This document shows, in pieces, positions 6,536 to 26,492 of a stretch of 26,492 bases of DNA. Under the pieces are notes generated by a model, which did not search any database, had not been told where the DNA came from, and saw only the letters and a list, made by a program, of their open reading frames with translations. Source of the stretch: a virus; IMG/VR virus record IMGVR_UViG_3300025697_000125, positions 1-26,492 of that record; one strand, written 5' to 3'. Every line of letters starts with the position of its first letter. Position 1 is the first letter of the stretch. The position numbers were made by a program, and so were the translations under genes.

Positions 6536-6877
6536 ATGGGGCGCAACAAGGGACCAGAATCATGCGGGAACTGCGGACGCGAGATCAATACACGGCTTGG
6601 CTGGAAATGCCCACGATGCGGATATGACAACATTCGCGGCCAGGAATTCGCTCGCAACATGAACGTCGGCAAGCACATGACAACCGCGCAATTCAGCGCA
6701 TATTCCGACGCGGCAAGCGAAATGAACAGAGAAGCCAGTAGGGCGATTCTAAGCGGCCAATGGGATAACGCCTACTCGTTAGACGCATTAGCCGACGAAG
6801 ACGCACAGGGGCCATTCTCGGACGATGTAGAGGACGTGGCGGCAGAGTTGACCTTGCAAGGCATGATGCGCCGATGA
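6536..6877 (+). CDS. Small zinc-ribbon protein
   Basis: A 113-residue protein starting at ATG 6536 behind a weak AGGGGTC site. Two CxxC pairs near the N-terminus (CGNCG at about residues 10-14 and CPRCG at about residues 25-29) form a zinc ribbon, followed by YDNIRGQEFARN. The rest is acidic and helical, ending in LQGMMRR. Zinc ribbons of this type bind nucleic acid or protein partners. It is the last gene before a long non-coding stretch, so the transcript probably continues into that RNA. Function unknown. Confidence 0.65.
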   Translation: MGRNKGPESCGNCGREINTRLGWKCPRCGYDNIRGQEFARNMNVGKHMTTAQFSAYSDAASEMNREASRAILSGQWDNAYSLDALADEDAQGPFSDDVEDVAAELTLQGMMRR

Positions 6878-7414: not shown

Positions 7415-7452
7415 TTGATTTAGCGAGGATAGCCTTTTTGAGAGGACTAGAA

Positions 7453-7983
7453 ATGTGTAGATTTGCCTCCGCGGTGTTTAACCCGAAAACAATGGAGGTT
7501 CGGGTTGCCGACCTAAGCTCGCACTCAGAAACCTATAAGAAGCTAGGTTTGGCAGACGGGCCAAAACCCAACCAATGGCGAGAGATGCACTACACATCTG
7601 ATGGCGAGGTAGAATGTCGTGTCTTGGACGTGGACAGCCGGACCGCTCCCGAGTGTGTCGAGGCCATTACTGCTCGTTGGCCCTCATTTGTGCAATTTAT
7701 TTCGTGGGCCATTAACAACCCGGAGAGCGTTGGCGGTTATCTCGATCTTGGAGGCCTCACTAGCGCCGAAGGTCTGAAGCTTCCGGAGAGCGTTGGCGGC
7801 TATCTCGATCTTAGCGGCCTCACTAGCGCCGAAGGTCTGAAGCTTCCGGAGAGCGTTGGCGGCTATCTCGATCTTAGCGGCCTCACTAGCGCCGAAGGTC
7901 TGAAGCTTCCGGAGAGCGTTGGCGACTATCTCGATCTTGGAGGCAGGTATTACGCAGTATCGCACGGGAAAATCGTGGAATAA
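7453..7983 (+). CDS. Repeat protein with 21-residue LRR-like/beta-solenoid repeats
   Basis: A 176-residue protein. I choose ATG 7453, with a GAGAGGA site 6 nt upstream, over the in-frame TTG at 7438. The N-terminal ~90 residues (MCRFASAVFNPKTMEVRV...) form a non-repetitive domain ending in a RWPSFVQFISWAIN helix. From residue ~91 come 3.5 nearly identical copies of a 21-residue unit (ESVGGYLDL.GLTSAEGLKLP), then a short cap, YYAVSHGKIVE. Units of this kind resemble leucine-rich or pentapeptide-like solenoids found in phage and bacterial surface or moron proteins. The gene is flanked by 38-bp direct repeats, which suggests it arrived as a unit. Function unknown; protein binding is the likeliest role. 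Confidence 0.7.
   Translation: MCRFASAVFNPKTMEVRVADLSSHSETYKKLGLADGPKPNQWREMHYTSDGEVECRVLDVDSRTAPECVEAITARWPSFVQFISWAINNPESVGGYLDLGGLTSAEGLKLPESVGGYLDLSGLTSAEGLKLPESVGGYLDLSGLTSAEGLKLPESVGDYLDLGGRYYAVSHGKIVE
7722..7944 (+). repeat. 63-bp tandem repeat inside the repeat-protein gene
   Basis: Units begin at 7722, 7785 and 7848, with a partial fourth at 7911. They are almost identical at nucleotide level, including third codon positions; only a few bases differ between the first and later units (GGAGGC versus AGCGGC). The period is a multiple of three, so changes in copy number would keep the frame. High nucleotide identity implies recent duplication. Confidence 0.9.
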
Positions 7984-13718: not shown

Positions 13719-13760
13719 ATGGACACCCAAACGATTAGCGAGGAGGCTACCGATGTCTGA
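13719..13760 (+). CDS. 13-codon mini-ORF bridging two genes
   Basis: ATG 13719 is 8 nt after a strong AGGAGG (13705-13710) and encodes MDTQTISEEATDV, stopping at TGA 13758-13760, just past the next start (ATG 13753). Its only visible role is to carry ribosomes onto the next gene, whose own AGGAGG lies inside it. It may be a coupling leader or a true microprotein. Confidence 0.35.
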   Translation: MDTQTISEEATDV

Positions 13761-14022
13761 CAGGGTTGAACGAGTGATCCCATTCTCAAACGGTTGCCAG
13801 CACTCCACTTGGGAAGACAGAAACTGTGCGCGTTGTGCCAAGAGCGACCTGAATACCATCGATGGCAAGGGTTGCTGTGACGTGCTCGACGACATTGTGA
13901 ATGCGTTCTGGACTGATGGCACGATGGACGCGGGGATGGCTAAACGCATGGGATACGAAGAGCCTGGACTGAAGTATACGTGGGACTGCCCCGAACGAAA
14001 AGATGTGACCGATGACAAATAA
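13753..14022 (+). CDS. Small Cys-rich phage protein
   Basis: An 89-residue protein with GAGGAGG 6-7 nt before ATG 13753. A CQHSTWEDRNCARCAK segment (about residues 15-30) followed by GKGCCDVLDDI supplies five cysteines and a histidine, which suggests zinc binding. The second half is helical and acidic, with a FWTDGTMDAGMAKRMGY helix. No family is recognised. It overlaps the next gene by 11 nt. Confidence 0.55.
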   Translation: MSDRVERVIPFSNGCQHSTWEDRNCARCAKSDLNTIDGKGCCDVLDDIVNAFWTDGTMDAGMAKRMGYEEPGLKYTWDCPERKDVTDDK

Positions 14023-14404
14023 CGACAAGGTTCCGGAAGGGCGCGTGTGGTTGTGCAGATATCCACCGAATATCTGGATATGGGTTTCGCTGGATAGGCC
14101 GCGTCAGTTGGGGAATATGTGGGCCTTTGACGAGGGGACAGCCACGGACGCTGTCGGGGCTGATGATAGCGATAAGGCTGTGCCAGAGGCCGCGTGGTGG
14201 ATGAAGCATCTGCTAGGCGAGGCCATCCCGCTTGAGAACGAGGCGCGGCTGATTACTACGCATGAGCAAGAATACCAATGCCCTGTTTGCAAGAAGTGGC
14301 AGACGCGGGCGAGCATTTTCTGTGATCGGTGCAAGAGCGGTCTGGCGTTTGCCAAATCCCGCTGCCGGGTTATCGAGACAATTAACCTGGAGGAATCGAA
14401 ATGA
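14012..14404 (+). CDS. Phage protein with C-terminal zinc ribbon
   Basis: A 130-residue protein whose start lies within the preceding gene. The N-terminal part is Trp-rich and beta-like (RVWLCRYPPNIWIWVSLDRP); the C-terminal part has a clear zinc ribbon, QCPVCKKWQTRASIFCDRC (about residues 89-107). The role is unknown; the ribbon may bind nucleic acid or another phage protein. It overlaps the following gene by ATGA. Confidence 0.55.
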   Translation: MTNNDKVPEGRVWLCRYPPNIWIWVSLDRPRQLGNMWAFDEGTATDAVGADDSDKAVPEAAWWMKHLLGEAIPLENEARLITTHEQEYQCPVCKKWQTRASIFCDRCKSGLAFAKSRCRVIETINLEESK

Positions 14405-14853: not shown

Positions 14854-15130
14854 GAAGAAGCCGGTGATAGTAGAGGCGATGCGTTACGGCCATTGCACAG
14901 ACGTTGACCTTTTGTGCTGGATTAGTAGTGGTGGGGTGCTGGTTGTGAGTGTGGTTGAGGGTGGAAAACGGTGGTTGGAGATACCGACCCTTGAGGGCCT
15001 AATGAAAGCACACGACGGCGATTGGATCATCAAGGGCGTGAAGGGGGAATTCTACCCCTGCAAGCCAGATATTTTTGCTCTGACCTACGAACCCGTACCA
15101 GAAGGGGAGGAGGCCGAACGTGAAGATTAA
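14840..15130 (+). CDS. Widespread small phage protein (MKLFRKKPVIVEA type)
   Basis: A 96-residue protein from ATG 14840 with AGGGGGA 4-5 nt upstream; the longer in-frame extension lies over the preceding gene and is rejected. It matches a pattern I recognise from many phages: MKLFRKKPVIVEAMRY at the N-terminus, IPTLEGLMKAHDGDWIIKGVKGEFYPC in the middle and KPDIFALTYEPV near the end. The family is common in tailed phages, but its function is unknown to me. It is predicted soluble. The stop overlaps the next start codon. Confidence 0.7.
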   Translation: MKLFRKKPVIVEAMRYGHCTDVDLLCWISSGGVLVVSVVEGGKRWLEIPTLEGLMKAHDGDWIIKGVKGEFYPCKPDIFALTYEPVPEGEEAERED

Positions 15131-15374
15131 AGAGCTTGAGAAAATCGGGCAGGATGCTCGCAAGGGTGGACCGGGGGCGTGGTGCTCCCAAATGATTGCA
15201 CATTTCCAACCCTTGCTCGAGGTGGCGAAGGCGGCTGACACCTTAGCATATTTTGTTAGGCACTTCGACATGGAGTGTGCCGCCGAAGACGTTTCGATGG
15301 GATGTTGGGAGGAGCTTGTGCAAGCGCAGTTAGATTTCGACGCCGCGCTCAAAGCCCTGGAGGAGACCAAATGA
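15120..15374 (+). CDS. Small helical hypothetical protein
   Basis: An 84-residue protein from GTG 15120 with a strong GGGGAGGAGG site. It is almost entirely alpha-helical in look (IKELEKIGQDARK, HFQPLLEVAKAADTLAYFVRHF, LDFDAALKALEETK) with no motif that I recognise. It overlaps its neighbours on both sides. Confidence 0.5.
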   Translation: MKIKELEKIGQDARKGGPGAWCSQMIAHFQPLLEVAKAADTLAYFVRHFDMECAAEDVSMGCWEELVQAQLDFDAALKALEETK

Positions 15375-15421
15375 ACAAAGCAGATATAGCGGAGATCGAG
15401 ATGGCAGAGGAGGGGTTATGA
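15371..15421 (+). CDS. 16-codon mini-ORF bridging two genes
   Basis: ATG 15371 overlaps the previous stop (ATGA) and encodes MNKADIAEIEMAEEGL, ending at TGA 15419-15421, overlapping the next ATG (15418). AGGAG lies upstream at about 5-6 nt, and the next gene's GGAGGGG lies inside. It mirrors the mini-ORF at 13719 in size, acidity and placement. Confidence 0.35.
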   Translation: MNKADIAEIEMAEEGL

Positions 15422-15603
15422 CCGACACGACAGGCGACGAAGCCAACAAGCGATACTACGCGGAAGGCTACGAGGATCACACGACAAGCGAATCCGAGCC
15501 GCTGTTCACGTGTAGCTGCGGGGGCGGGGTTTACGATGTCATAGTGTGCAAAGAGGCCGGATATGACCGGACGGCGATGATGTGCGATAACGATGAATGT
15601 TGA
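15418..15603 (+). CDS. Small Cys-rich protein, probably truncated by an in-frame TGA
   Basis: A 61-residue frame with GAGGAGGGG just upstream of ATG 15418. It contains FTCSCGGGVYDVIVC and CDNDEC at its very end, which together would make a zinc ribbon. The stop falls immediately after the last cysteine, where ribbons usually continue with Gly-aromatic. The same frame stays open for 78 further codons. A single G-to-T change turning GGA into TGA would explain this, so the gene is probably the front half of a 140-residue protein. If the TGA is real, the short protein may still fold around zinc. Confidence 0.5.
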   Translation: MTDTTGDEANKRYYAEGYEDHTTSESEPLFTCSCGGGVYDVIVCKEAGYDRTAMMCDNDEC

Positions 15604-15840
15604 TGGGCATACACCCCCGAGGCCCGAGACGGTCTGGCCACGCTGAGAGAGGGGATACGGCTCGCGGATGAATGGGACGAGGCCCGGAAACGATACCAGG
15701 CCGGTCTTAGATCGGTTCGGCCAATGGCGATGTTGTTCGGCCTTCACAATGCAATGCAGAGCAAGGCAATAGCATACCGCGACTGGAAGGATGCCCCCAA
15801 TGTGGAAGCTGAGGCGGTGGCGAAAATCAAGGGAGGATAG
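15604..15840 (+). pseudogene. In-frame continuation of the 15418 gene after TGA
   Basis: Directly after TGA 15601-15603 the same frame runs 78 codons to TAG 15838-15840. The product (beginning WAYTPEARDGLATLREG, ending AEAVAKIKGG) looks like genuine coding sequence: charged helices, balanced composition and codon third positions rich in G/C. It has no plausible start near its beginning; the first ATGs are at about residue 41. The best reading is the 3' half of a gene split by a nonsense change or sequencing error; readthrough is a less likely alternative. Confidence 0.5.
15818..15836 (+). repeat. 19-bp direct repeat, upstream of the radical SAM gene
   Basis: TGGCGAAAATCAAGGGAGG is identical to 16676-16694. 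Here it encodes the C-terminal residues AKIKGG of the preceding frame and provides the GGGAGG site for the next gene. Confidence 0.8.
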
Positions 15841-15843
15841 GGA

Positions 15844-16701
15844 TTGAAAAGGATCATTCGCGTATTCCCAAGCCGCACCAAACAGACACCCACCGACGAA
15901 CTCGCATTTGTCGGGGATCCCCAGTTGTTCCGGCCAGAATCCGATGAAGTGCATGTCAGCGTGACATTCACATGGGATAAGCCTGAAGCGGAACGCCTTG
16001 TAGACGCATGGGGCAGGTATTACAAGACCGTCCGTATTGGTGGTCCAGCCTACGGGGATCCGGGAGGCGAATTTGTTGGTGGTCGCTACGTCAAAGAGGG
16101 CGTTACGTTCACGAGTCGTGGCTGCCCCAACAAGTGCAAAAGCTGCATGGTTCCGGGTCGGGAGGGCAAGCTACGCGAACTCAAAACGATTGTGCCGGGT
16201 AACACTGTTCAAGACAACAACCTGCTGGCCTGTTCGCGGGATCACTTCGAGCGGGTCTGCGACATGCTTGAGGGGCAACGCGATATTCAGTTTAGCGGGG
16301 GCTTTGAGGCCGCACGGCTCACAGACTGGCATGTTAAGCGGCTAATGCGACTGCGGGTCGGGCAGATGTTCTTGGCTTACGACCGACCGGAAGAACTAAA
16401 ACCCGTGTTGCGTGCGATAGACCACTTGCGGTGGGCGGGGTTCAAGCAGAGGCAGATTCGATGCTTTGTTCTTGTGGGGCACACGCTAGAGGACACACCA
16501 CAGGCGGCAGAGAATCGATTAAGCACGATATTCAATGCCGGGGCGTTGCCTTATGTGATGTTCTGGCGTGACGAAAATAGCAAGAAAGAGATACCGCAAT
16601 CGTGGAAAAAGCTGGTTTGGCTCTGGTCTCGACCGGGGGCTACGATGTCGCACGGGAATAAACTACGGGCCGAGATGGCGAAAATCAAGGGAGGTGGATG
16701 A
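15844..16701 (+). CDS. Radical SAM protein of unknown substrate
   Basis: A 285-residue protein starting at TTG 15844, 7 nt after GGGAGG. A radical SAM cluster motif CxxxCxxC is seen at Cys94, Cys98 and Cys101 (RGCPNKCKSCMVPGREG), followed by a GNTVQDNNLLACSRDHFERVC segment (about residues 118-138) and FSGGFEAARLTD. The order fits a TIM-barrel enzyme that makes the 5'-deoxyadenosyl radical. Similar genes occur in phages, but their substrate is unknown; modification of a nucleic acid base or a small molecule is possible. The gene is flanked by 19-bp repeats coding for the same C-terminal residues, which suggests insertion. Confidence 0.8.
   Translation: MKRIIRVFPSRTKQTPTDELAFVGDPQLFRPESDEVHVSVTFTWDKPEAERLVDAWGRYYKTVRIGGPAYGDPGGEFVGGRYVKEGVTFTSRGCPNKCKSCMVPGREGKLRELKTIVPGNTVQDNNLLACSRDHFERVCDMLEGQRDIQFSGGFEAARLTDWHVKRLMRLRVGQMFLAYDRPEELKPVLRAIDHLRWAGFKQRQIRCFVLVGHTLEDTPQAAENRLSTIFNAGALPYVMFWRDENSKKEIPQSWKKLVWLWSRPGATMSHGNKLRAEMAKIKGGG
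16676..16694 (+). repeat. 19-bp direct repeat, end of the radical SAM gene
   Basis: Second copy of the sequence at 15818-15836, 858 bp further on. It encodes AKIKGG at the end of the radical SAM protein and holds the ribosome-binding site of the next gene. Confidence 0.8.
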
Positions 16702-16907
16702 TGGAAAAGTATCTGGAAAACTTGGCGAATGACTTACGTGCCAGGGCAAGTAGCTTGAAGGAAAGCGCACGGGCCATCTATCGCGAATCGGCAGAACTGA
16801 CAATGATAGCCGACGCGATAGACTTCAAGGTGTTAACCGCGGCATGTGGCAATGAAGACGAACCGCCCGAAGAGCCGGAGGTATTCGGCAGTGGGAAAGG
16901 GGGCTGA
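16698..16907 (+). CDS. Small coiled-coil-like hypothetical protein
   Basis: A 69-residue protein at an ATGATG start (16698 or 16701) overlapping the radical SAM stop; GGGAGG lies just upstream. Residues 2-50 form one long amphipathic helix with Ala/Leu/Glu spacing (YLENLANDLRARASSLKESAR), followed by an acidic Pro-rich tail ending GSGKGG. No family is recognised. Confidence 0.5.
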   Translation: MMEKYLENLANDLRARASSLKESARAIYRESAELTMIADAIDFKVLTAACGNEDEPPEEPEVFGSGKGG

Positions 16908-25786: not shown

Positions 25787-26492
25787 TGAACGTGGAAATC
25801 GTAACAGAACGGATGCCGTTGGTTGAGATATACCCCGACGTGGCTAAGGCACTCGACAAGCCCGATGCGGAGTTCGTGCGGAAGTATTACGCCGGCAAGG
25901 CACCCGAACTTCAGAAAGACGAACGGTCGCTGATAGCCTACGTGACAACCGAGGACATCGACCGCGATATGGAAGTCATCTTGACTCGCGGGATTGACCT
26001 GAAGCATTTCAAGAAGAATCCCGTCGTGCTCTGGGGGCATGACTATGACGGCCTGCCGGTAGCGAAGGCCGACTGGATTAAGCGTGGCACCACCGGGGAC
26101 AGTAACGCCCTGATAGCAAAGGCCACATTCGCAGAGCACGCACTGGCTGACGAGGTCTGGAATCTCTACAAGGGCGGGTTCTTGAAGGCGTTCAGTATTG
26201 GCTTCATCGTCACCAGCTACCGTGCGGCGAACAAGGATGAATTCGGTGACAAGACAGAAAGTGTGCGCGGCGTAATCGAGAAATGTCAGCTATTGGAGTT
26301 CTCGTGTGTAAACGTCCCGGCTAACCAGGCCGCATTAGTCGCGGCGGTTGCCAAGTCGCTTATCGTCCTGAGTGATGATACACAGAAGCAGTTGGGGTTA
26401 GAAGACCATGAAGCCGAGGAAGTCGCTGAGGATGCGGCTGATGATGTCACGGGCGGCGTCAAGGCAGACGATGACTTGATATGCAAGATGGA
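25786..26492 (+). CDS. HK97-type prohead protease, 3' truncated
   Basis: The frame starts at a TAATG overlap with the portal gene, preceded by GAGGTGATGAAAT, and runs off the right edge after 235 codons. LWGHDYDGLPVAKADW (His85) and FLKAFSIGF (Ser137) are the catalytic His and Ser of U35 prohead proteases, followed by LLEFSCVNVPANQAALVAAV (about residues 170-190). The protease matures the capsid by removing the scaffolding part of the head proteins. The acidic end (EAEEVAEDAADD) may be the start of a scaffold-like region fused in frame. Confidence 0.9.
   Translation, partial: MNVEIVTERMPLVEIYPDVAKALDKPDAEFVRKYYAGKAPELQKDERSLIAYVTTEDIDRDMEVILTRGIDLKHFKKNPVVLWGHDYDGLPVAKADWIKRGTTGDSNALIAKATFAEHALADEVWNLYKGGFLKAFSIGFIVTSYRAANKDEFGDKTESVRGVIEKCQLLEFSCVNVPANQAALVAAVAKSLIVLSDDTQKQLGLEDHEAEEVAEDAADDVTGGVKADDDLICKM

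Follow-up and report, generated by a model that had tools for sequence, protein, structure and literature searches.

An orphan cysteine-rich phage gene probably interrupted by a premature in-frame TGA

The DNA analysed here, referred to throughout as the window, is a whole virus record of 26,492 bases. Genes for a terminase and a radical SAM protein within it have database matches, and portal, helicase and methylase genes were assigned by our own reading of the translations. Directly ahead of the radical SAM gene there is a reading frame of 140 codons (15418-15837) that is made up of 61 codons, a TGA and 78 open codons and is followed by a TAG (Table 1), with its first part ending ...MMCDNDEC immediately 5' of the TGA. 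A preliminary description of this DNA had reported an in-frame TGA with 78 open codons beyond it at 15418-15840, and this is confirmed from the sequence. The stop of the upstream gene and the start of the split frame are both overlapped through ATGA by a 16-codon frame at 15371-15421 (MNKADIAEIEMAEEGL), which has GGAGG upstream of it and is possibly a coupling leader. A 38-nt stretch that is 82% identical between its two copies is common to the gene ends at 15818-15855 and 16676-16713, where it encodes AKIKGG together with the Shine-Dalgarno site of the next gene. Elsewhere in the window, the protein encoded at 7438-7983 contains several near-identical repeats LPESVGGYLDLSGLTSAEGLK.

Table 1. 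Features in and around the split frame, in window coordinates
Feature	Position	Strand	Remarks
Upstream gene	15120..15374	+	No PHROGs or Pfam match at E <=1
Shine-Dalgarno-like AGGAGG	15408..15413	+	4 nt 5' of ATG 15418
Split frame, first part	15418..15600	+	61 codons; scores as coding
In-frame TGA	15601..15603	+	Read from sequence
Split frame, second part	15604..15837	+	78 codons; same-frame coding score; weak DUF2460 likeness; three modelled helices
Hairpin 3' of TGA	15621..15639	+	Fits loose bSECIS model; stability as in shuffles
TAG closing the long frame	15838..15840	+	3 nt ahead of start at 15844
Downstream gene, radical SAM domain protein	15844..16701	+	TTG start; GGAGG 7 nt upstream

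Coding content beyond the TGA was assessed with a codon model trained on the other genes of the window, with a gene's own codons left out when windows inside that gene were scored. The gene set was set by hand from the ORFs of the window and comprised 46 intervals, 4 of which were dropped for being in the wrong frame to leave 42 tiled genes; later codon statistics used a 27-gene subset of the hand-set genes. The 78 codons after the TGA score 0.12 bits/codon, and 39% of 115 in-gene windows score as low while none of 230 forward off-frame windows scores as high (an earlier run that included reverse frames gave 7 of 900 off-frame windows as high). Dinucleotide shuffling of the same stretch (n=4000) left it open in frame in 5.25% of cases, with a single shuffle both open and scoring as high. 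A longer same-frame open stretch, of 101 codons, follows one of 27 other window genes, a case explained by the separate start of the following gene (13753 after 13716). The open length of the stretch is by itself weak evidence, and its codon content is the stronger evidence. The coding score is highest past 15718: codons 15718-15837 score 0.23, which 0 of 542 off-frame windows reach, versus 0.003 for the first 38 codons (15604-15717), a value as low as that of 10% of 285 in-gene windows and reached by 4.9% of 570 off-frame windows. In these first 38 codons the frame leads the two remaining forward frames by 0.26 bits/codon, and 0.18% of the 570 off-frame windows show a lead as large. Same-frame coding is thus well supported for the later half of the stretch and moderately supported for its first 38 codons.

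The spacing of the neighbouring genes bears on whether one gene or two are present. Between 13716 and 16701, with hand-set starts, successive gaps between genes measure 36, -11, -4, -14, -11, 43, 240 and -4 nt, with the 240-nt gap being the one that follows the TGA. Ending the gene at the TAG shrinks this gap to 3 nt, as compared with -14 to 43 nt for the other seven. Coding in a shared frame together with closure of the gap in a packed gene run therefore indicates that the split frame is probably a single gene with a stop inside it, which is a simpler reading than two genes.

Alternatively, a small Cys-rich gene could end naturally at the TGA and be followed by a separate small gene or by a decayed remnant, possibly of a DUF2460 tail gene. 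This we consider unlikely. In-frame ATG codons at 15724, 15730 and 15754, the rise of the coding score past 15718, the same-frame start that follows a stop at 13753 and a weak DUF2460 likeness confined to the second part all speak for it. However, past the TGA the frame contains six ATG, GTG or TTG codons (15724, 15730, 15733, 15754, 15802 and 15817), and the only one with a core Shine-Dalgarno match is GTG 15802 (AAGGA at 10 nt), which sits twelve codons ahead of the TAG; no core match precedes 15724, 15730, 15733, 15754 or 15817. This Shine-Dalgarno test is a loose one: it accepts 26 of 34 gene starts but also 28.6% of 5000 positions drawn at random. GAGG is found 11 nt ahead of a CTG at 15634. 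Re-initiation at the TGATG (15603) was rejected as a start, as it yields a frame of just 22 codons with a negative coding score. The frame margin of the first 38 codons also counts against a natural end, and a remnant should show stops or frame shifts, of which there are none before 15838. Same-frame coding on both sides of the stop, with a second part that has no convincing start of its own, is the pattern of a gene interrupted by a nonsense codon.

What the second part might encode is suggested by a likeness to part of DUF2460, which has moderate support and is best treated as an open lead. The best family match of the 78 residues is TIGR02217 (E 0.002; 17.7 bits against a cut-off of 136.65), a phage distal tail protein of the Rcc01695 family, and PF09343 (DUF2460) gives E 0.045 and 13.6 bits against a cut-off of 30.4. 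The top phage match of the frame by tblastn (E 7) likewise falls in a protein annotated as DUF2460; the 78 residues score 73 against that protein, which was itself chosen by its similarity to the second part, and none of 2000 shuffles and none of 98 pieces taken from other genes of the window scores as high. Thirteen DUF2460 members were fetched through this protein, gp049, these being 13 of the best 30 of 115 records, and a genome-contig scan with gp049 gave one locus that was left out of the comparison. The mean local score against the 13 members is 47.8, which 0 of 98 control pieces match on average, and for single members 0-8 of 300 shuffles and 0-2 of 98 control pieces are as high. Among 40,254 peptides searched with a profile built from the 13 proteins, the second part came out on top (E 0.041). 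The likeness to these GTA-type distal tail proteins (DUF2460/TIGR02217) extends over about 50 residues of the second part, including W...R..Y and DW.D, and stays below the family cut-offs. No DUF2460 match was obtained for the first part of the frame, nor did PF09343 match in a six-frame search of the window. Support for the likeness is only moderate because the family was picked by the same similarity. The profile rank suggests that the post-TGA sequence is real protein in the same frame and, if the likeness is real, the second part may be of separate origin from the first. In the preliminary description it was stated that protein-like sequence continues past the TGA, and the codon scores, the closure of the gap and the DUF2460 profile rank all uphold this. 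The DUF2460-like part adjoins the radical SAM gene and not a recognised tail block.

The first part of the frame has Cys residues at positions 32, 34, 44, 56 and 61. A CCHC zinc knuckle follows the pattern C-x2-C-x4-H-x4-C, which these five residues do not satisfy, and the zinc-knuckle cysteine of the preliminary description is therefore not retained. The five Cys suggest a putative zinc finger or ribbon. Family scans of the split gene gave no match that reaches a cut-off, and PHROGs, for which there is no cut-off, gave nothing below E 0.2. The Ogr/Delta zinc finger PF04606, which has the C-x4-C second half in common with the split gene, scored 13.8 bits against a cut-off of 26.3 (E 0.055), a weak match obtained with a 65-residue piece only when the TGA was read as Gly and lost when it was read as X or Trp. 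The best match among PDB sequences, AP endonuclease 1, had E 0.0087 for the whole and only 0.74 for the stretch, and was taken as chance. Further small proteins with Cys pairs are encoded at 14012-14404 and 6536-6877, and the former shows weak double zinc ribbon matches below cut-off.

Structure modelling from the single sequence, with no alignment, gave one model with a mean pLDDT of 62 and four others at 36-43. Strands are predicted at residues 54-57 and 60-63 and helices at 67-98, 103-125 and 129-139, with block means of 67-87, and residues 1-33 and 35-52 fall under 50. If this model is right, a stop after Cys61 would remove the second strand (60-63).

Relatives of the full 140-residue frame, proposed in the preliminary description as a check, were sought in viral and genome contigs, phages and plasmids. 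Neither an intact copy of the 140-codon frame nor a homologue spanning the TGA was found in these collections. A peptide-pattern search of viral contigs returned only the same phage, over residues 78-140, and the DNA pattern C-x-W-x-YTPEA gave 7 matches, every one of them in frames of 22-27 codons. The genome-contig search for the whole frame yielded no homologue, and tblastn against phages and plasmids yielded nothing at E 1, the best values being E 7-9. Related loci were collected via the radical SAM, terminase, helicase and methylase genes, using the best 80 matches listed for helicase and methylase, and tblastn against these loci detected no homologue of the whole frame. When phmmer was run on 39,731 six-frame peptides from 2.12 Mb, the best matches were E 0.25 for the second part and 0.61 for the whole, both to one and the same peptide of locus L060. 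Scans with two other window genes recovered no relative, and a search without a positive control found a homologue of the frame in 0 of the 50 whole records behind 50 loci.

Closely related DNA was recovered for other portions of the window. Contig G001 (L001/L007) is the same phage and matches the window at every one of the 10,846 bases between 15647 and the end of the window; as it begins at 15647, 44 nt past the TGA, it is without the TGA site. Identity over this length makes gross assembly error look rare. L008 has 1 mismatch with the window in 4919 bases and 3 with G001 in 812 bases beyond the window, and L009 and L010, with terminase identities of 81% and 78%, do not cover the split-gene region. 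Position 26366 is T in the window and C in L008, which comes from another sample, and this changes Val to Ala in the last, incomplete frame.

Nothing suggests that TGA 15601 is deliberately read as an amino acid by the phage. TGA serves as an ordinary stop in this phage, in which it is the commonest stop codon and ends 22 of the 42 tiled genes; the pattern of a reassigned codon, avoided as a stop and frequent inside genes, was not found. A code in which TGA stands for an amino acid has just the one in-frame TGA to recommend it and is barely credible given this stop usage, and the window contains a single split frame of such kind under strict criteria. The stop-reassigned phages in the accounts of PMC9523058 and PMC10607447 do resemble the present case in having a stop codon within a coding frame, but TAG is reported in 41 ORFs in PMC10607447 as opposed to the one frame touched here.

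Programmed or tolerated readthrough is a further possibility, whereby translation would mostly end after Cys61 while a minority of ribosomes would insert an amino acid at the TGA and add the 78-residue part. A coding extension does lie in frame 3' of the stop, with same-frame coding on either side of the TGA, and the stop falls directly after the last Cys, such that two product lengths are conceivable. We nevertheless judge readthrough to be distinctly unlikely. The RNA 3' of the TGA is no more stable than shuffles (z of -0.13 to 1.22 across five lengths), and an Rfam search matched no family. The window and L007, L008, L009, L010 and L109, which are incomplete records, yielded no tRNA gene, suppressor included, and no relative that could show conservation was found among viral and genome contigs, phages and plasmids. 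In the low-confidence structure model the TGA additionally falls within strand 60-63, which stopping would remove. The Qbeta coat/A1 system, as presented in PMC12469967, resembles this locus in that an open, coding extension continues the frame past a stop codon. It differs in that it belongs to an RNA phage and its A1 product is a known protein that infection requires, whereas the extension described here is known from sequence alone. A narrower version, in which an orphan gene of a dsDNA phage, so far seen once, has a leaky UGA after the last Cys of a putative finger and would give two products, we find quite improbable, and the same applies to the proposed identity of these products as the finger alone and the finger plus a small domain akin to part of DUF2460.

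Selenocysteine insertion at the TGA, which had also been raised in the preliminary description along with a search for a SECIS element nearby, has fared poorly and is highly improbable. The legend to Fig. 2 of PMC13188914 gives a bSECIS model with a loop of 3-9 nt, a stem of 4-16 bp, G in the first two loop positions, a distance of 16-37 nt from the UGA and an MFE of <= -7.5. A hairpin that fits this loose model is present 24 nt after TGA 15601; its 5-nt loop begins with G and its fold energy is -12.6 kcal/mol. However, using a script that tolerated small stem bulges and counting TGA trinucleotides on both strands of the window, 195 of 838 TGAs fit equally well; requiring the usual G[G/U] loop leaves 77 of 838, and TGA 15601 is not among these. 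Cys homologues at the TGA position are presented as a requirement in PMC1088965, and a Cys-bearing homologue aligned to TGA 15601 was not found in the viral, genome-contig, phage and plasmid searches, just as no tRNA gene was found in the records scanned. The locus is like the bSECIS selenoproteins treated in PMC13188914 and PMC1088965 in that a hairpin stands at an allowed distance from an in-frame TGA, but unlike them its hairpin is at chance level and its searches returned no Cys homologue. Its TGA also comes directly after a Cys and is not in a selenoprotein CXXU or UXXC motif.

We conclude, with a probability of about 0.73, that this is an orphan Cys-rich gene in which the premature TGA is a nonsense mutation or a base error. 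Such a phage gene would have 140 codons, its first part rich in Cys and putatively zinc-binding and its second mostly helical, and the one TGA inside it would stem from a nonsense mutation of the phage that was sampled or from a base error of assembly. Ribosomes would halt after Cys61 to leave a 61-residue product and, if the TGA is a nonsense mutation, the gene would be dispensable. Among the options offered earlier, a nonsense change or sequence error is the one that fits best, while readthrough is left without a positive sign. Ordinary phage genes interrupted by a nonsense codon likewise have one stop, coding sequence on both sides of it and no signal around it, but for the split gene an intact copy, which would be proof, was not found. 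Should the TGA prove to be a lesion or an error, the consequence is for annotation only, as gene callers give a protein of 61 residues and miss the 78-residue part. Were it instead a conserved leaky stop, the gene would offer a counterpart, in a DNA phage, to the readthrough protein of Qbeta.

Frames split by a stop in this manner are rare among other viral loci. Strict criteria modelled on this case were applied to loci of at least 6 kb with enough training ORFs, some of them overlapping, and gave a single stop-split coding frame in the 2.01 Mb that 157 other viral loci make up, and likewise 1 in the window; an earlier run of the search gave 0 in 91 loci. The score thresholds are passed by 811 of 1460 real ORFs when cut into 61+78 codons. 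The filter that requires 35 codons with no start was chosen after this case had been seen, and when it is set at 20, 10 or 0 codons the 157 other loci give 6, 18 or 118 candidates and the window 1, 1 or 2. A frequency of one in 2.01 Mb is what rare lesions would give. The sole other strict candidate in the 157 viral loci lies in L118, on the minus strand at 1619-2386, where the frame is split by a TAA.
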